Source of the DNA: Candidatus Hydrogenedentota bacterium
Lineage (GTDB): Bacteria > Hydrogenedentota > Hydrogenedentia > Hydrogenedentales > JAEUWI01
Direction of reading: 5' to 3'
NCBI GenBank assembly: GCA_016182605.1
Contig: JACPGE010000024.1
Span: 1 to 64,000 of the forward strand
Length of the DNA: 64,000 nt
The translations under genes were made by a program, and so were the position numbers. Under the pieces are notes generated by a model. It ran no database searches. It saw nothing but the letters and a program-made list of their open reading frames with translations, and was not told where the DNA came from. This document shows positions 5,890-18,671 of the stretch, piece after piece (positions within the stretch are counted from its first letter, which is position 1; each line of letters starts with the position of its first letter).

Positions 5890-6645
5890 CTATGGTTTCA
5901 AGGGTTCGCCAATATTCTTCGCAAGGAAGACGTCGATCATGGCGCCGTCGTAGTGCTTGCCCTGTTCGCTCTTGAGGTAGTCGATGGCCTTCTCGTGCGT
6001 GGCGTGGGTGGTGCGGTAGTGGCGGGGGCTGGTCATGGCGCAGTAGACGTCGATGATCTTCATCACGCGGGCCAGGTAAGGGATGTTCTCGCCTTCGAGT
6101 TTATCGGGATAACCGGTGCCGTCGTAACACTCGTGGTGGGATTGCACGATCTCCACGACATCGAGCCCGACACCGCGCTGGCGAAGCAGTTCCACGCCGA
6201 GGCGTGTGTGATCCTGGAGCAGCAGCCATTCGTCGTAGCTGAGCACGCTTTTCTTGAGGAGGACGTCGTTGGGGATGGCGATCTTGCCGATGTCATGCAG
6301 AAGCGCGCCGCGTTCCAGGGTGAGCCGATCGCCTGGGCTGAGCCCGAGGGCCTGGGCGAAGCGCACAGCGTGCTCTTGCAGGCGCCGGCTCGAACCGGAC
6401 AGAAGCCCTTCGCGGCAATCGATGGCGTCGGCGAGCAGATCGAGCCACTGCTCGTGGCCGTCGCCGATCTTCACTGCCGCGTCGATCAGGGCCTTGGCGT
6501 CGCCGGGGCCGCCGGCCACGGCGACCGTGCCCGCGGGGATGGCCTTGGCCCCGGTCACGATCTCGATGGGGTGCTTGCCCGCCTTCGCCTGGAGGGCCTC
6601 CGCAAGAGCCTTGTTGTCACCTACGACCAGAACGCGCTTGAGCAT
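5890..6645 (-). CDS. HD-GYP domain protein (putative c-di-GMP phosphodiesterase)
   Basis: A 251-residue protein whose C-terminal two thirds is an HD-GYP domain, the class that hydrolyses cyclic di-GMP. Visible motifs are HDIGK (117-121), an H in LQDHTRLG (146), HHE (170-172) and GTGYP (176-180), so the signature and metal ligands are complete. The first 75 residues begin like a response regulator (MLKRVLVVGDN) but are too short and lack a phospho-acceptor, so input is unclear. The start at 6645 has AAAGGAG upstream. It could work with the PilZ protein at 45279 in c-di-GMP signalling, but that link is inference. No GGDEF synthase is seen in the window. Confidence 0.88.
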   Translation of the reverse strand: MLKRVLVVGDNKALAEALQAKAGKHPIEIVTGAKAIPAGTVAVAGGPGDAKALIDAAVKIGDGHEQWLDLLADAIDCREGLLSGSSRRLQEHAVRFAQALGLSPGDRLTLERGALLHDIGKIAIPNDVLLKKSVLSYDEWLLLQDHTRLGVELLRQRGVGLDVVEIVQSHHECYDGTGYPDKLEGENIPYLARVMKIIDVYCAMTSPRHYRTTHATHEKAIDYLKSEQGKHYDGAMIDVFLAKNIGEPLKP

Positions 6646-6873: not shown

Positions 6874-7590
6874 TCAATCCAACTGCGTCAAGGCACGCAG
6901 GTGCCGGATCTCTTCCTGGCTGAGGTAGCGCCATTCTCCGGGGCGGAGCCCGTCGGCGCGAATGGTGGCGAAGGATTCGCGCAGGAGGGATTTCACGGGG
7001 TGGCCGACGGCGGCGCACATGCGTTTTACTTCGCGTTTGCGGCCCTCGTGGATCTGCAATTCCAGCAGTGAGGCGTTGGGCTCGGTCTTGAGGATGCGCA
7101 CGCGGGCGGGCGCGGTGGGGCCGTCTTCGAGTTCGACGCCCGCTTCGAGGCGATGCATGGCGTCGGGTTGCATGACGCCGCGTACCCAGGCGCGGTAGAC
7201 CTTCCAGACTTCGTTGCTGGGATGGAGCAGCCGGTGGGAGAGTTCGCCGTCGTTGGTGAGGAGCAGGGCGCCCTGCACGTCCATATCGAGGCGTCCCACG
7301 GGATAGACGCGCGCCTTCACACCCTTGACGCAATCGAGGACGGTCTTGCGGCCGTGGGTGTCGGAGGCGGTGGTGACGACGTCGCGGGGCTTGTTCAGCA
7401 CGATATAGATCTTGGTGTCTTTGGCGATGGGCTTGCCGTCGACGGCGACGCAATCGGTATCTGGGGAGATGGTGAGTCCCAGGGTGGCGGGGCTGCCGTT
7501 CACGGATACCCGGCCCTCGCTAATGAGGCGCTCCGCGGCACGCCGCGAGGCAATGCCGCATTCGGCCAGGTATTTTTGCAGACGGAGCAT
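6874..7590 (-). CDS. rluB: RsuA/RluB-family pseudouridine synthase
   Basis: A 238-residue RNA pseudouridine synthase. An S4 RNA-binding domain occupies about residues 1-45 (LQKYLAECGIASRRAAERLI), followed by the catalytic domain with VLNKPRD (65-71) and the catalytic aspartate Asp102 in the GRLD motif. The family modifies 16S (RsuA) or 23S rRNA (RluB/E/F). Lying directly after scpB is a very common arrangement for rluB, which favours 23S helix 89 as target, but the exact site is inferred. It starts only 2 bp after the scpB stop, so the two should be co-transcribed and probably translationally coupled. Confidence 0.88.
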   Translation of the reverse strand: MLRLQKYLAECGIASRRAAERLISEGRVSVNGSPATLGLTISPDTDCVAVDGKPIAKDTKIYIVLNKPRDVVTTASDTHGRKTVLDCVKGVKARVYPVGRLDMDVQGALLLTNDGELSHRLLHPSNEVWKVYRAWVRGVMQPDAMHRLEAGVELEDGPTAPARVRILKTEPNASLLELQIHEGRKREVKRMCAAVGHPVKSLLRESFATIRADGLRPGEWRYLSQEEIRHLRALTQLD

Positions 7591-12193: not shown

Positions 12194-14122
12194 TTAGGCG
12201 ATCTCCAGTTTCGCTTCCTTCAGTTCCACTAACTCGTGATCGATACTCTGGGTGACCGGGAAGCGAAAACCCGTTTTGGGATCGAGGTCCAGGTCCATCA
12301 CTTTGAGCGCAACGGGATGCTGATCGCGCTTCCACTGGTTCTGACAGAAGCGGCGCGCAAAGTCCGCCGTCCATTCGCGCAGTTGTTCTGGCGTGTGGCC
12401 CGGGTGGCGCACGCAAGCAATGCGCCAACAATCCACGAGGGATAGCCGCCTGCGCGCGTAGAGGTGAAGCAGATCGTCCAGGACGACATAGGGCATGAGG
12501 TCCGATTCGTCTTTCTGATCGGGGGCCAGTTCCGCACTGGGGGGAATATCGAGCACACGCTGCAGCGCCTTAATGTTGTCGCGTTTCGCCAGGTAGGCCA
12601 GCAACTCCGACACGAGGGTCTTGGGCACATTCGCGATCGGCGAGTAGCCGCCCTGGTTGTCTCCTCCGGTGGTGGTATAGCCGACGGCAGCTTCGCTCAA
12701 GTTGGAAGTGACCAGCACCAGCCCCCCCACGCTGTTCGCCCAGTTGAGCATCATGGCGCCGCGCACACGGGCCTGCAAGTTTTGCTTTGCGAGGGCGGTA
12801 ACTTTGTCCGCGCCACCCGCCAGCACTTCGGCGAACTCCGTGGCGACCGCCGTCTCGGTGTCGATGGCCAGGACGCGGAAAGGCACGCCCAGTTCGACCG
12901 CGAGGGCCTGCGCTGCGTCGTGGGTGCCCGAAGAACTGTAGGCGGCCGTGGGCAGATAGACCGTATCCACGTGGGCGGCGAATTTGTCCGGCTGGGCGCC
13001 TTCCTTCAGGGCCTTGGCTGCTTCCACCGCTAACAAGAGGCACAGGGCGCTGTCGCGGCCGCCGGAAAGGGCGACGAGGAAGCGTTCGAAAGCGCCAACC
13101 TTTTCGAAGTAGTCGCGCAGCCCGAGCACCAATGCGTCGAACAGCTCGTCGAGGTATTGTTCCCGGGTTGGCCCGGGCGCGCTTTCGCCGCTGACATAGA
13201 AGCTCTTGGGCAACTGGGCGGCGTATTCCCTTAGCGAGGCGGGGCGGAAAACCCCCTCAATCGCGCGAACCATTTCCGGACGCACCCCGCAGCCGGCCTT
13301 TTCCTCGCGCCAGGTGGTGTTCTCCCGGCGGTCCTGGAGCAGATCGTCGAGATCCACCAGGCCGGTCGTGAGGGTCCACATGCTGCGGGAGAGGATGGGG
13401 CCTTCCGCCACGATGCCGTTGGGCGTTGCGATGAGTCCGCCGCCATCGAAGACGAGGCGGCTGTTGTCGCAACCGAGAAGATTCGCGTAGGCGTAGACGG
13501 ACTTCAGGTGCGCCGCCGTGCTCTCGACCAGGCGCTTGCGGTGATCGTTCTTGCAGGGGGTGAACGGCGACGCGCTCGGATTGCAGACGATCTCCGCGCC
13601 TGCGCGGACGCGTTCCTGCGCGGGGGAATTGGGCGACCAGAGATCCTCGCAGATCTCCATGCTTAGCTTGCCGAAGGGCAGTTCGAAAACGAGATCGCCC
13701 GCGGGCACGCCGTTGATGCGGGTCTGGCCGCCTTCCCAGGGGGTGTAGTTGCGGCCCTCATAGAAGATGCTGTAAGTGGGCAGATGGCGCTTGAGCACCA
13801 GGCCATGTATCACGCCGCAGTAGAGCAGGGCGGCCGCATTGTAGACGCGTGACTCGATCTGGACGGGCAAGCCGGCCACGACCGCGATGCCGCCGCAGGC
13901 CTGTGCGAGTTCCGCGAGGCTGGCCCAACTGTGGCGCGTGATATCGGGCCAGAAGATGCGATCTTCGAGGCTGTACCCAGAGAGGGCAAGTTCGGGCGTC
14001 ACCAGCAGATGCACCCCGCGCTGCTTCGCCTCGGCGATGACCTGCACGAGCCGCGCGCGGTTGCCGGGGAAATCGCCGGCCTTCACGGAGACGGAAGCCA
14101 CGCCAATCTTGACAAGACGCAT
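12194..14122 (-). CDS. nadE: glutamine-dependent NAD+ synthetase
   Basis: Converts nicotinate adenine dinucleotide to NAD+ using ammonia from its own glutaminase. The 642-residue protein has an N-terminal nitrilase-type glutaminase with Glu44 (TPELALSGY), Lys111 (LKRHLPTY) and Cys158 (MEICEDLW), then the synthetase domain with the pyrophosphate loop LSGGRDSALC and the block TSNLSEAAVGYTTTGGDNQGG. Both halves look complete. The start at 14122 was chosen because GGAG lies about 10 bases upstream and the family begins MRLVKIGVAS-like; an earlier in-frame start would add 42 unrelated residues. With pncA and a Nudix gene upstream on the same strand it forms a NAD salvage group. Confidence 0.94.
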   Translation of the reverse strand: MRLVKIGVASVSVKAGDFPGNRARLVQVIAEAKQRGVHLLVTPELALSGYSLEDRIFWPDITRHSWASLAELAQACGGIAVVAGLPVQIESRVYNAAALLYCGVIHGLVLKRHLPTYSIFYEGRNYTPWEGGQTRINGVPAGDLVFELPFGKLSMEICEDLWSPNSPAQERVRAGAEIVCNPSASPFTPCKNDHRKRLVESTAAHLKSVYAYANLLGCDNSRLVFDGGGLIATPNGIVAEGPILSRSMWTLTTGLVDLDDLLQDRRENTTWREEKAGCGVRPEMVRAIEGVFRPASLREYAAQLPKSFYVSGESAPGPTREQYLDELFDALVLGLRDYFEKVGAFERFLVALSGGRDSALCLLLAVEAAKALKEGAQPDKFAAHVDTVYLPTAAYSSSGTHDAAQALAVELGVPFRVLAIDTETAVATEFAEVLAGGADKVTALAKQNLQARVRGAMMLNWANSVGGLVLVTSNLSEAAVGYTTTGGDNQGGYSPIANVPKTLVSELLAYLAKRDNIKALQRVLDIPPSAELAPDQKDESDLMPYVVLDDLLHLYARRRLSLVDCWRIACVRHPGHTPEQLREWTADFARRFCQNQWKRDQHPVALKVMDLDLDPKTGFRFPVTQSIDHELVELKEAKLEIA

Positions 14123-14127
14123 CGCAG

Positions 14128-14697
14128 TTACTCCGTTGCTTTCTGGATTGCCGCCGGCTCCAGCCAGGTCTCCACGGGGACACCGCTGAGCTGGGCAATG
14201 GCCGCCGCGAGTTCGTTGGGATAGCGGGTGCCGATGAGCAGATGGCACCCGTTACTGTACTCGATTCGCACACCCAGTTTTCCCTGGATGTTGTAGGCCT
14301 TGCCATGGCGCACGTAGCGTATCCCCCAGCCGCCGTACTCGGCGACAGGACGGTAGACCACCGGGATGACGGCCGTGACCGATTCCAGTTCGATCTTGCG
14401 CACCTTGCGGTGCAGGGGCTTGAATCGCACAAACAATCCCGCCGTGGTCACTTCCACCTGCAGTTTCGCGGCAGCAAAGAACAGCAGCAAGAGCCCGTTC
14501 CCCAACAGGAGTATTCCACCAAGTACGGAAAGCTTGCCGTCCGTCATCACCTCGGAAAAGACCTTGCCGTGGATCAGTTGCTGACTCATCATCCAGAGGG
14601 TCGTGCCTAAGAGCGGCGAGCTGATCAGTACCAGCATGATCCAGAGCCAAGGCTGCCGAAACTGCTGATCTTCGCGAAATAGTCGTTGTTCATCCAT
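14128..14697 (-). CDS. membrane protein with PH-like domain, unknown function
   Basis: A 189-residue protein with two membrane helices (about residues 17-38 and 57-80), followed by a soluble part with alternating strands (VEVTTAGLFVRFKPLHRKVRKIELESVTAV, seen in pieces) like the bacterial PH domains attached to short membrane anchors. It ends with a helix holding YPNELAAAIAQ. The start at 14697 (MDEQRLF) is preferred over an upstream in-frame start, which would add 28 unlikely residues, but no clear ribosome site is seen. It lies 5 bp before nadE, so it is probably in the same operon; whether it is involved in NAD metabolism is unknown. Confidence 0.6.
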   Translation of the reverse strand: MDEQRLFREDQQFRQPWLWIMLVLISSPLLGTTLWMMSQQLIHGKVFSEVMTDGKLSVLGGILLLGNGLLLLFFAAAKLQVEVTTAGLFVRFKPLHRKVRKIELESVTAVIPVVYRPVAEYGGWGIRYVRHGKAYNIQGKLGVRIEYSNGCHLLIGTRYPNELAAAIAQLSGVPVETWLEPAAIQKATE

Positions 14698-14798
14698 GAT
14701 TTGTGACTCAAGAAGCGATACGGCATCGCATGTTTTCAGGCAATGGGCATTCCCCAGGGGGCCATGGCGCAAGTTTAGCACAGCAGCGCGGGGCGGGG

Positions 14799-14840
14799 CC
14801 TACTCCGCAATGGCGGCGCTGCGCACGCGCGGAATGCCGG
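14799..14840. repeat. 42-bp direct repeat: duplicated 3' end of pncA (copy 1)
   Basis: This segment matches 16050-16091 at 40 of 42 positions. Read on the minus strand it encodes GIPRVRSAAIAE and a stop, the exact C-terminus of the nicotinamidase at 16051, yet it lies just after the nuclease stop codon and is attached to no gene body. It marks one edge of a 1.2-kb insert. Confidence 0.85.
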
Positions 14841-14841
14841 A

Positions 14842-15948
14842 TCAGTTCTCTTCGGGCTGCGACTGACAATCCAACGTTAATTGGTAGAGTTCGTGGAGCT
14901 TTTCCTGCAACAACTGTTTGTCTGGTAGCTGGGTAGTGTATTCCGCAATCAGCGCCGGAGACAAACTGCGGCTGAGTGCGTATTCGACTACTTCGTCGTC
15001 TTTGGAGGCACAAAGTAGCAGGCCGATGGCCGGGTTTTCGTGAGACTTTCGCGAATCGCGGTCCAGCGCTTCGAGGTAAAAATTGAGTTTGCCCAGATGT
15101 TCGGGCTCAAAGCGGTCCACTTTGAGTTCGATCGCAACCAGACAGTTGAGTCCCCGGTGAAAAAAGAGCAGGTCTATCGCGAAGTCGCGTCCACCAACCT
15201 GCACAGGGTACTCCGAGCCCACGAAGCAGAAATCGCGCCCGAGTTCGATAAGAAAATCCCGCAACTGCAGCACGAGCCCTTTGTGCAAGTCCGCCTCGGA
15301 ATGGTGACTTGGCAGGCTCAAGAATTCAACAACATAGGAATCCTTGAAGACCGCACTCGCATTGGGATGGGCAAGAGTTGCCGGAAGTAACAATTTCGGG
15401 GGTGAAAGCATTGCCCGTTCAAATGCGGCACTCCGGTATTGGCGCTCGAGTTCGCGGCTGGACCATTGCTCGTCGATACACCTGCGCAGGTAGAATTCCT
15501 CTTCTTCAGGCCGCTTGCTCTGACCCAGAATTATCATGTGTTGTGTCCATGGCAATTCTCTCAGCAGTGCCGAGAGATCTGGCCGGTCTCGCCATGCCTC
15601 GAAAAACTGTCGCATGCGCCAGAGGTTTTGCGGCGAGAAGCCACGAACACCGGGTTGACGCCGCTGAACTTGCACGGAAAGTGCCGCGACCGTTCCTTTT
15701 CCCCACCCTTCGGACTCGATTCTCCGTGACAAAATCCCTCCAACCTGCCAATAGAGATCGACCAAGGTTGAATTTACGGCACGCAGGGACTTCGCGCGTG
15801 ACAGTTCAATTACGTTGACGATTTCGTCGATGGCATTCTCGGACACTACTTTCCGGGCCCGCAAGGAACCGGACCCAGATTCTGCCGCACTTGGCTTCCG
15901 CTTCAACGGCCACCTCCCTTCTGAAAAACGACCCAATACTGAGTTCAT
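14842..15948 (-). CDS. YhcG-type PDDEXK nuclease (DUF1016)
   Basis: A 368-residue protein of the YhcG/DUF1016 family. The N-terminal part (about 35-190) is the helical DUF1016_N domain with YWQVGGILSRRI, FSPQNLWRMRQFF and LPWTQHMIIL. The C-terminal part is a PD-(D/E)xK nuclease with catalytic Asp259 (FAIDLLFFH) and Glu274/Lys276 (VAIELKV), so the active site looks intact. Family members often sit in restriction-modification or defence loci, but no methylase or specificity gene is near. The gene is bracketed by a 42-bp direct repeat copied from the end of pncA, which suggests insertion. The start is uncertain, since no strong ribosome site is seen. Confidence 0.85.
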   Translation of the reverse strand: MNSVLGRFSEGRWPLKRKPSAAESGSGSLRARKVVSENAIDEIVNVIELSRAKSLRAVNSTLVDLYWQVGGILSRRIESEGWGKGTVAALSVQVQRRQPGVRGFSPQNLWRMRQFFEAWRDRPDLSALLRELPWTQHMIILGQSKRPEEEEFYLRRCIDEQWSSRELERQYRSAAFERAMLSPPKLLLPATLAHPNASAVFKDSYVVEFLSLPSHHSEADLHKGLVLQLRDFLIELGRDFCFVGSEYPVQVGGRDFAIDLLFFHRGLNCLVAIELKVDRFEPEHLGKLNFYLEALDRDSRKSHENPAIGLLLCASKDDEVVEYALSRSLSPALIAEYTTQLPDKQLLQEKLHELYQLTLDCQSQPEEN

Positions 15949-16049
15949 TCTGAGTCAACCGCTCTTATCGCGCCGGCCCAATAACAACCCTCCTGTCTCA
16001 GGTTCTTCCGCACCGGCTGGATCGGCGTCAGTTCGAACCGATACCACTT

Positions 16050-16091
16050 CCTACTCCGCGATGGCGGCGCTACGCACGCGCGGAATGCCGG
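16050..16091. repeat. 42-bp direct repeat: 3' end of pncA (copy 2, in the gene)
   Basis: This is the genuine 3' end of the nicotinamidase gene, plus one base beyond its stop. The other copy is at 14799-14840; two mismatches separate them. The repeats are in the same orientation and enclose 14841-16049, which contains only the nuclease gene and about 100 bp upstream of it. Confidence 0.85.
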
Positions 16092-16623
16092 CGGCTTCCA
16101 TCTCTACCAGGGCTTCGGCGACGGTCTGGTCGTTGACGCCGCGGCAGCCATCCTCGATGAGGATGGTTTCGAAGCCGGCGTGGAGGGCATCGAGCGCGGT
16201 GGCCTTCACGCAGTAGTCGGTGGCGAGGCCGGCGACGAAGACGCGGGTGATGCCCTTGTCGCGCAGGGCGGCCTCGAGCCTGGGGTTGCCAAAGGCGCTG
16301 TAACATTCGGCGTCGCGGTCCGTGCCTTTGTCGATAATCGTGGCGTCCAGGGGGACCATGAGTCCGCCGTGGAACTCGGCGCCGGGGGTGTTCTCGACGC
16401 AGTGTTCGGGCCAGCTTCCGTCGACGTACTCGGGGGCGAAGCTGAAGCTGCAATGGTCGCCGGGGTGCCAGTCGCGGGAGTAGAAGAGGTGCTCGAATTT
16501 CGGGATGACGCGGTTGATGGCGGGCACCACCATGTCGCCGCCGAGCACGGCGAGGGCGCCGCCGGGGCAGAAGTCGTTCTGCACGTCGACTACGATGAGG
16601 GCGTCCTGTTCAGTGATGTCCAT
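16051..16623 (-). CDS. pncA: nicotinamidase
   Basis: Deaminates nicotinamide to nicotinate for NAD salvage; possibly also acts on pyrazinamide-like amides, as the family does. The 190-residue protein shows the complete cysteine-hydrolase triad: Asp13 (VVDVQNDF), Lys99 (IDKGTDRD) and Cys138 (ATDYCVKAT). The metal ligands Asp51, His53 and His57 in RDWHPGDH are also present. The start (MDITEQDALIVVDVQ) lies 14 bp inside the end of the Nudix gene and is preceded by GAGGA, so translation should be coupled. Its last 41 bp are duplicated 1.25 kb downstream, after the nuclease gene. Confidence 0.93.
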   Translation of the reverse strand: MDITEQDALIVVDVQNDFCPGGALAVLGGDMVVPAINRVIPKFEHLFYSRDWHPGDHCSFSFAPEYVDGSWPEHCVENTPGAEFHGGLMVPLDATIIDKGTDRDAECYSAFGNPRLEAALRDKGITRVFVAGLATDYCVKATALDALHAGFETILIEDGCRGVNDQTVAEALVEMEAAGIPRVRSAAIAE

Positions 16624-17059
16624 GAGTTCGATCCTCGTGTGCGCATTGCAGGGCGTCGGCGATGATGGTGGCGTGGTCGAAGGCCAGGGGCGGCAGGGCG
16701 TCCAGGGGAAACCACTGCGCAGCGGCGGCATCGTCCTGTGCGGTGACCGGTGTGGCCGCCTCCACTGTAGCAACATGGGCGATGGAAATGGTACGTCCGC
16801 GCGGGTCGCGCGTGGGATCGCCGTAGGTGTGGAACTGGCGCAGCGCCACCTGGCGCAGACCGGTCTCCTCGGCGAGTTCGCGGGCGGCGGCGGCATCGAG
16901 CGGCTCGTCCATGTCGACAAAGCCGCCGGGCAGCGCCCAGGCCCCGGCGAAGGGGGCGTGCGCGCGCTGGATGAGCAGCACGTGTGGGCCGCTGGGGACG
17001 CGGGCGAAGACGACGGCGTCGATCGTGACCATGGGCCGGGGATAGGGATAGGTGTACAT
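16610..17059 (-). CDS. Nudix hydrolase, ADP-ribose-pyrophosphatase-like
   Basis: A 149-residue Nudix enzyme. The Nudix box is perfect at residues 46-68 (G, five residues, Glu52, seven residues, then RELAEETGL), so it should hydrolyse a nucleoside diphosphate linked to another group. Its overlap with pncA and nearness to nadE suggest an NAD-related substrate such as ADP-ribose. The block GRTISIAHVATVEA after the box fits that subgroup. It lacks the C-terminal winged helix of the NrtR repressors, so it is probably an enzyme, not a regulator. GAGGA precedes the start. It leads the pncA operon. Confidence 0.85.
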   Translation of the reverse strand: MYTYPYPRPMVTIDAVVFARVPSGPHVLLIQRAHAPFAGAWALPGGFVDMDEPLDAAAARELAEETGLRQVALRQFHTYGDPTRDPRGRTISIAHVATVEAATPVTAQDDAAAAQWFPLDALPPLAFDHATIIADALQCAHEDRTHGHH

Positions 17060-17212
17060 GAGGAGTCCTCGGTTGCGGCGTGTTTGCCAGCGCAGTTTCT
17101 GGCCGGGAAAGCCGGCTGGCTGCGGAATGGTAACACGGTGTCGACGCTCAAATCGCCGCAGGAGGATGGCGCGGTTGAATGGCGCTTGTCACCTGATGTG
17201 GAGGGCTGAAGC

Positions 17213-17481
17213 AATGCCTGCGCTCGTCGAGCGAAGGCCTACTGGGGGCGTCTGTTCTGGGCGTTCTTTGTAAAGAACGGATAATGAATGAAGGGTCTCA
17301 ATGCCTGGGTGGGGCACGTGAAGAGGAGAAATCGCCTTCTTCTTGTTGCAGAGCGCCGGGATGTAGCACGTCGCTCGATGAGCGTCGTGATTGGGGTACT
17401 TGCCACGAAGCAGCCGCCAATCGCCACGGAAGCAATACCGCAGCCAAGCAGCTTCTCGGACTATCCGGAGACGGAACGCGT
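17213..17481. repeat. left direct repeat of the transposase locus (87-bp unit plus 182-bp unit)
   Basis: It consists of one 87-bp unit (17213-17299, beginning AATGCCTGCGCTCGTCGAGC) and one longer unit (17300-17481, beginning AATGCCTGGGTGGGGCACG). The same two units, in the same order, recur at 18404-18671 on the other side of the transposase gene. Both units contain a CGCTC...GAGCG palindrome. The long unit runs into the last seven codons, stop included, of the transposase. The rest of this gap (17060-17212) holds only the leader of the Nudix gene. Confidence 0.85.
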
Positions 17482-18090
17482 GGCCCGGTCCAACTCCGGG
17501 TCGTTCCAGGAACCGTAAGGCCACTCCCGATAGTCCTTGACCAAACCCGCCTTCACGGGATTATTCCGAATATACATTCGAATACGCTCATCCTGTTCGT
17601 TGGAGCGGGACCAGTGGTCAAACCATTCCTGCTGCCACAAGGACCCCCGCAATCTCAGAATCGGTCGGGCGTGTTGCGTCGTCCATCGCTTTAGGGATTC
17701 CATCGTGGGCCGCAGTTCCCGCGCACGCAACTGGAAAAGTAGATGAATATGGTTTGGCATCAGCACATATTCGTCCATCAGCCAGATTCCACGTTGATGG
17801 CGGTTTCGCAGGGCCTCGGTGCAAAGCGCGGCTACCTCCGGACGGACAAGATAGTCGATGTCATTTCTATGATCGAGGGCTTCTTCAATCAGGCGGAATG
17901 CCTGTCTGCGCAACTGCCAAAGCTTCGATTCTCCGTCACGCTCCGCTTCGACCGATAGCGCTCGCAGGCTGTCCAAGACTTCCATTGGCAGAGATCCCTG
18001 AACGTGCATCGTCACGAAATACACGCCGCGGTTCACTTCCCAGTGCGGCAGGCGCATGCGGTAGAACGACGTCGTGTCACTCGAATGCAT
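17461..18090 (-). CDS. REP-associated tyrosine transposase-like protein (Y1 transposase)
   Basis: A 209-residue single-strand DNA transposase of the IS200-like/RAYT group. The HUH metal motif is MPNHIHLLF (His114-Ile-His116) and the nucleophile is Tyr172 in RMYIRNNPVKAGLV, preceded by the typical WQQEWFDHW. RAYT proteins usually move or maintain short palindromic repeats rather than complete insertion sequences, and this gene is flanked on both sides by palindrome-bearing direct repeats. The start at 18090 has AGGAA about 10 bases upstream; 18126 and 18057 are alternatives. The gene appears intact. Confidence 0.85.
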   Translation of the reverse strand: MHSSDTTSFYRMRLPHWEVNRGVYFVTMHVQGSLPMEVLDSLRALSVEAERDGESKLWQLRRQAFRLIEEALDHRNDIDYLVRPEVAALCTEALRNRHQRGIWLMDEYVLMPNHIHLLFQLRARELRPTMESLKRWTTQHARPILRLRGSLWQQEWFDHWSRSNEQDERIRMYIRNNPVKAGLVKDYREWPYGSWNDPELDRATRSVSG

Positions 18091-18229
18091 AGGGTGGAAG
18101 TTCCTGTGCGTCTTTCGATATGTCAAGGGCAGCTTTTGCCCATACTAGCAAAGGCCGCTTGAATATGCGATTATTGGGCTGGCTGTGGACCGAGCAATGC
18201 CACGGAATTCATGGCTTTGTTCGAGTCTC

Positions 18230-18491
18230 AATGCCTGCACTCGTCGAGCGAAGGCCTACTGTGCGCGTCTGTTCTGAGCGTTCTTTGTAAAGAGCGGGTA
18301 ATGAAAGAAGGGTCTCGATGCCTGCGCTCATCGAGCGAAGGCCTACTGGGGGCGTCTGTTCTGGGCGTTCTTTGTAAAGAGCGGGTAATGAAAGTAGGGT
18401 CTCAATGCCTGCGCTCGTCGAGCGAAGGCCTACCGGGGGCGTATGTTTGGAGACGGCTTTGTTCAGCACGGGTGATGCGGGGAGGGTCTTT
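18230..18491. repeat. three tandem 87-88-bp repeat units right of the transposase gene
   Basis: Units begin at 18230, 18317 and 18404 (periods 87, 87 and 88 bp). The first two are close to identical; the second half of the third has diverged. Each carries the palindrome core GCTCGTCGAGC or a one-base variant, and GGCGTTCTTTGTAAAGAACG-like sequence with its own TTCTTTGTAAAGA palindrome. Because 87 is a multiple of 3 the minus strand reads as a 29-residue repeating peptide. The 138 bp between the transposase start and 18230 is the gene's upstream region. Confidence 0.88.
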
Positions 18492-18671
18492 AATGCCTGG
18501 GTGGGGCACGTGAAGAGGAGAAATCGGCACCTCCAGGTCGCAGTGCGCCGGGAAGTAGCACGTCGCTCGACGAGCGTCGTGATTGGGGTACTTGCCACGA
18601 ACCAGCCGCCATTCGCCATGGAAGCAATACCGCAGCCCGCCAGCCTCGAACTATCCGGAAACGGAGCGCGT
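18492..18671. repeat. right copy of the long repeat unit
   Basis: This 180-bp unit matches 17300-17481 along its whole length with scattered substitutions, including the CGTCGCTCGACGAGCGTCG palindrome and the terminal CTATCCGGAAACGGAGCGCGT, whose left counterpart encodes the transposase C-terminus. No open transposase frame is attached to the right copy. The next 93 bp up to ilvB hold nothing recognised. Confidence 0.8.

Follow-up and report, generated by a model that had tools for sequence, protein, structure and literature searches.

A solitary DUF1016 nuclease gene enclosed by two copies of the pncA 3' end in a Hydrogenedentota NAD salvage operon, and comparable structures at unrelated genes

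The window (i.e., the whole 64,000-nucleotide stretch that was analyzed, from contig JACPGE010000024.1 of a Candidatus Hydrogenedentota bacterium) carries an NAD salvage operon on its minus strand. Read in the direction of transcription, the order is a Nudix hydrolase gene, pncA, a 101-bp leader, a nuclease gene, a detached 42-bp copy of the pncA 3' end, approximately 100 bp of flanking DNA, a membrane protein gene, and nadE, as follows.

16610 to 17059, minus strand: Nudix hydrolase gene, first in the NAD salvage operon (PF00293, 4.7e-24)
16051 to 16635, minus strand: pncA-type isochorismatase-family gene, intact (PF00857, 8.5e-33); the Nudix-pncA order is kept in relatives
16050 to 16091, minus strand: upstream repeat copy, consisting of the final 41 bp of pncA and one further base, ending 1 nt past the pncA stop codon
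15949 to 16049, minus strand: 101-bp leader from the pncA end to the nuclease start
14842 to 15948, minus strand: YhcG/DUF1016 nuclease gene, 368 aa (PF06250, 1.3e-55; PF17761, 9.4e-40; PDC-S02, 2.3e-127)
14799 to 14840, minus strand: downstream, noncoding copy of the pncA 3' end, 40/42 identical
14698 to 14798, minus strand: flank adjoining the downstream copy, probably native, with a box like one found 5' of the membrane gene in relatives (by eye)
14128 to 14697, minus strand: operon membrane protein gene without a Pfam match, adjoining nadE in relatives G004, G005, and G006
12194 to 14122, minus strand: nadE, glutamine-dependent NAD synthetase (PF02540, 2.4e-39; PF00795, 5.7e-22)

The two copies constitute a 42-nt direct repeat (D3; 14799 to 14840 and 16050 to 16091) with 40 of 42 positions identical and a spacing of 1,251 nt. 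The repeat scored 36, while the best score in 200 dinucleotide shuffles of the 4-kb region was 15 or less, which rules out a chance origin. A search of the 6.76-Mb genome for the 42-bp pattern, allowing at most three mismatches, hit two places only (i.e., the two copies in the window). The copy at 14799 encodes GIPRVRSAAIAE followed by a stop codon and one further base; it begins 1 nt past the nuclease stop codon (14842 to 14844), and it stands alone, with no longer pncA paralogue around it. Both differences between the copies are synonymous (2/2 at third codon positions). Between the repeats lies one substantial gene (15948 to 14842), which encodes a protein with the DUF1016_N and YhcG_C domains; the insert contains no integrase gene, and no sigma-70-like promoter was found on the minus strand of the 101-bp leader (15949 to 16049). 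The preliminary description, which was made from the letters of this DNA, had reported a detached copy of the pncA 3' end plus one base just beyond the nuclease stop codon, and an enclosed segment holding a YhcG-type nuclease gene only, with no integrase; all of this is borne out. Bracketing repeats are not a general habit of this genome, since 394 kb of other sequence from it contained no comparable single-gene case. Elsewhere in the window (17212 to 18647), an IS200-like (Y1_Tnp) transposase gene (17461 to 18126) is flanked by several repeat copies of 94 to 156 bp, as in REP-associated transposases.

Both domains of the window nuclease scored above the Pfam cutoff, and the protein matches the PADLOC candidate defense family PDC-S02 (2.3e-127). 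YhcG/DUF1016 proteins are PD-(D/E)XK nucleases with the catalytic motif E-D-(E/D)xK (PMC1189080). In an alignment of 13 proteins (A1), E218, D259, and K276 were invariant, and the acidic residue preceding xK is E in the window nuclease, which thus keeps the catalytic residues predicted from the family motif. No solved relative was found in the PDB by sequence. The window nuclease gene is the sole PF06250 gene found in its genome, and its best relatives (59 to 70% identity) come mostly from Betaproteobacteria and other distant groups. The GC3 of the nuclease gene is 0.60, compared with 0.75 to 0.89 in its operon neighbors. Among 76 close relatives of the nuclease, 36 have type I restriction genes no more than 2.5 kb away, and 25 of these are directly 3' of hsdM. 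The window gene shares both Pfam domains and the catalytic residues with the YhcG/DUF1016 (PDC-S02) family, but it resides in an NAD salvage operon, not in a restriction locus. Carriage by phages was considered and set aside: no relative of the nuclease was found in viral contigs, and the 14 relatives in phage records were all distant.

Five genomes of the same family and order (G001, G004, G005, G006, and G021) lack the nuclease at the corresponding place. On the basis of its GC3, its distant best relatives, and this absence, the window nuclease is a foreign arrival that entered at the pncA end and left pncA intact, as had been proposed. In G001, G005, G006, and G021, a gene that we read as pncB (this is our own reading of the protein, not a Pfam result) lies directly 3' of pncA, and in G005 and G006 it is followed by the membrane gene and then nadE. 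G004 has neither pncB nor the nuclease, and a gap of ~387 bp takes their place. The operon in relatives is thus Nudix-pncA-pncB-membrane-nadE, and pncB is missing from its place in the window (14698 to 16050). The operon named in the preliminary description (Nudix, pncA, a membrane protein, and nadE) was incomplete; the junction in relatives does lack the nuclease, but the neighbor of pncA there is mostly pncB rather than the membrane gene. The loss of pncB, which was invisible in the window alone, would be an event separate from the arrival of the nuclease; the only pncB relative in the window genome is on another contig (G000:C117:47138-48538) and is 45% identical to a relative's pncB. Since the 14698-to-14798 flank keeps the box that relatives have 5' of the membrane gene (by eye), the downstream copy probably lies beside native DNA. 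Among the relatives examined, none has the nuclease at this place but lacks the repeat. A search of E. coli for empty sites likewise found none; yhcG, which most of its genomes contain, was of no use for this purpose.

To see how often such structures recur, we collected DUF1016 loci (L numbers below) from genome contigs, from the phylum of the window and from other bacteria. The loci from genome contigs are biased toward close relatives of the window nuclease. A bracketing repeat was defined as a direct repeat with a score of at least 20. Such repeats bracketed 18 of the 143 DUF1016 genes with enough flank and 10 of 485 other open reading frames in the same loci (Fisher p = 1.7e-6). Curation by eye, carried out after the data had been seen, left ~14 DUF1016 cases and ~4 controls: palindromic and self repeats were removed (L211, L220, L240, L249, L323, and L070 were excluded because their repeats were palindromic, intergenic, or self-copies), and the weaker gene-end cases L158 and L053 were included. 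In a held-out plasmid set, fetched afterwards, 0 of 17 loci were gene-end cases, and the overall rate including that set is nearer 14 in 160. DUF4143 ATPase genes of the same phylum had a bracketing repeat in 1 of 25 cases (a palindrome) and no gene-end case (0/25), compared with 5 of 34 DUF1016 genes of that phylum (p = 0.06); these control sets are small, and many of the genomes are metagenome assemblies. The recurrence suggests that arriving DUF1016 genes often bring part of a neighboring gene with them.

Usually, the bracketing repeat is a copy of the 3' end of the upstream gene, and the nuclease has the same direction as that gene in those 3'-end cases that were examined. The genes concerned are unrelated and occur in other bacteria: hsdM in L042, L053, and L087; probably hsdM, without a Pfam match, in L247; a dnaE2-like polymerase gene (L161), a sugar epimerase gene (L179), an HD-domain gene (L224), and an amidase gene (L230); and in L158 a gene to which no family was assigned. 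Gene starts rather than ends are duplicated in L060, L155 (rhaT), and L213 (ORF6N). In most gene-end cases, the repeat ends within ~4 nt of the neighbor's stop codon (+1 in the window and L247; 0 in L042, L224, L158, and L053; +3 in L161; -4, ungapped, in L179); in L087 it ends 21 nt short. The copy starts no more than ~32 nt from the nuclease stop codon in nearly all gene-end cases, with L230 as the exception. Several loci hold arrays. In L087 (4848 to 8008), three diverged hsdM 3' ends and two DUF1016 genes are stacked between hsdM and hsdS; in L158 (~1250 to 2760), the 3' end of one gene occurs three times, around a DUF1016 gene and a short inverted-repeat insert; and in L285 (contig 374 of G130), an HD gene's 3' end is present as short copies interspersed, in an array-like arrangement without an integrase, among RhuM, DUF4143, and RES-domain genes.

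Other genes were found in similar surroundings. In L042, an Abi_2 gene between a DUF1016 gene and hsdS is enclosed by 19 bp of the hsdS start, repeated exactly (6023 to 6041 and 7133 to 7151). Two of the ~4 curated controls enclose other defense-type cargo, namely a minus-strand DUF4143 ATPase gene bracketed by copies of a neighbor's 3' end (L046, 767 to 2590) and, in the type I restriction locus L080 (1716 to 3931), an AAA ATPase gene flanked by two hsdS 3' ends that have diverged.

Integrases that target gene ends bring an incoming copy that restores the gene end and leave the resident end at the far side of the insert, and the window is alike in both respects. The preliminary description had drawn this comparison, and the event might be a site-specific integration in which a recombinase acted in trans on an insert carrying a substitute 3' end; the ending of the repeat at the stop codon is expected of it as well. 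However, the insert is a single-gene cargo without an integrase, the comparable insertions target unrelated genes, and no common target or core was seen by eye when the repeats were laid side by side. We see very little prospect that this explanation is correct, and the site-specific part of the earlier proposal is not upheld. A role like that of homing endonucleases, in which the nuclease would cut the intact gene end and so drive its own insertion, is also highly unlikely. The predicted catalytic residues of the nuclease are intact, and the higher frequency of repeats at DUF1016 genes than at DUF4143 genes would agree with this, but similar structures enclose the AAA ATPase, DUF4143, and Abi_2 genes described above, and a single cutting specificity would hardly cover targets that look so diverse.

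The positions at which the two copies differ bear on where the second copy came from. L158 has 10 differences over 70 bp (between two of its three copies), every one a synonymous third-position change, and third positions account for 22/32 differences in L179, 17/24 in L087, and 7/9 in L060 (80/126 when all cases are pooled). Since the differences fall mostly at third codon positions, both copies at several of these loci were coding while they diverged. One explanation for the anatomy is insertion with long target duplication, in which the nuclease alone would have entered, 42 bp of the resident pncA would have been duplicated, and the copies would have drifted later. Restriction-modification genes of H. 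pylori have the same anatomy, as the phenomenon is presented in papers citing the original report (Nobusato, Uchiyama, Ohashi, and Kobayashi, Gene 2000; cited in PMC1643837 and PMC3031569). High identity between copies (40/42 in the window, 60/61 in L224, 183/187 in L213) allows a recent exact duplication, and the mismatches in L247 are spread across codon positions (6/20 at third positions), like those of a decayed relic. However, a duplicated target would be noncoding from the start, and changes would therefore be expected at all codon positions, unlike what is found in L158, L179, L087, and L060; nor does target duplication by itself account for a repeat that ends at a stop codon. We regard it as a possible but rather unlikely explanation. 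The codon pattern thus argues against a plain duplicated target and fits an imported fragment, and the simplest source of a second coding version would be a donor orthologue brought in with the nuclease.

Synonymous differences would also be expected if pncA had had a tandem paralogue, the second copy of which was mostly replaced by the nuclease gene. The relic is, however, only 42 bp long and 1 nt from the nuclease stop codon, none of the relatives examined showed a tandem pncA, and a separate tandem duplication followed by the same replacement would be needed at each target (i.e., hsdM, the dnaE2-like gene, and others). We consider this quite unlikely.

Our preferred explanation, held with moderate confidence, is that a fragment consisting of a relative's pncA 3' end and the nuclease gene recombined into the resident pncA. 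The donor would have been a close relative in which the nuclease gene followed the pncA 3' end. The fragment may have circularized and entered by one crossover with the resident pncA, or it may have been joined by homology at one end and illegitimately at the other. As a result, pncA would carry the incoming 3' end with the nuclease next to it, and the resident 42-bp end of pncA would be displaced behind the nuclease, beside the native flank. The shared gene end would be the only address, an integrase would be unnecessary, and the nuclease would be a passive passenger; repeated rounds could produce arrays such as those in L087, L158, and G130 (L285). Under this import, the repeats would end at the stop codon because intergenic DNA was not common to the donor and recipient lineages. 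In its favor are the foreign composition and distant relatives of the nuclease, its absence from this place in relatives, the native-looking flank of the downstream copy, and the recurrence of the structure at unrelated genes. In E. coli, single-crossover integration leaves partial duplications of 109 to 950 bp of the homologous locus (PMC3240628).

The import of a 3' end is suggested by the codon pattern at the other loci; the window alone, with two differences, does not prove it. Several observations count against it: L247 (6/20) and L161 (1/3) lack the third-position pattern, the start of the copy within ~32 nt of the nuclease stop codon is left without explanation, and the loss of pncB requires a separate event. 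The signal for the direction of import is weak or ambiguous in L224 and L161. A bolder version of the import, which we think unlikely, is that a DUF1016 gene constitutes a single-gene cassette that moves together with a neighbor's 3' end as its only address and speeds its entry by cutting the uninterrupted end (i.e., an integrase-free, gene-end-homing unit able to build arrays).

Long target duplication, as characterized in the citing papers, is the nearest named phenomenon and may apply to the window itself: both involve a defense-type gene flanked by direct repeats of the target that are long and variable, without an integrase. The present cases differ in that the cargo is a solitary DUF1016 nuclease, the repeats mostly end at the neighbor's stop codon, and the copies at several loci differ as two coding orthologues would, not as a fresh duplicate. 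Single-crossover or homology-facilitated illegitimate recombination (PMC3240628) is alike in that one homologous stretch suffices and part of the locus is left duplicated around the insert; it was demonstrated with laboratory constructs, whereas here it would be deduced from natural loci with homology limited to gene ends.

Should it be regular for DUF1016 genes to bring in a neighbor's 3' end, each pair of repeats would be a trace of the event, import could be told from duplication by the codon positions at which the copies differ, and the mechanism would be testable in transformable laboratory strains. To our knowledge, it is largely an open question how a single defense gene gets from one operon to another when neither a transposase nor an integrase is involved. 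Such arrivals, if they are regular, would help explain the buildup of extra defense genes between hsdM and hsdS.
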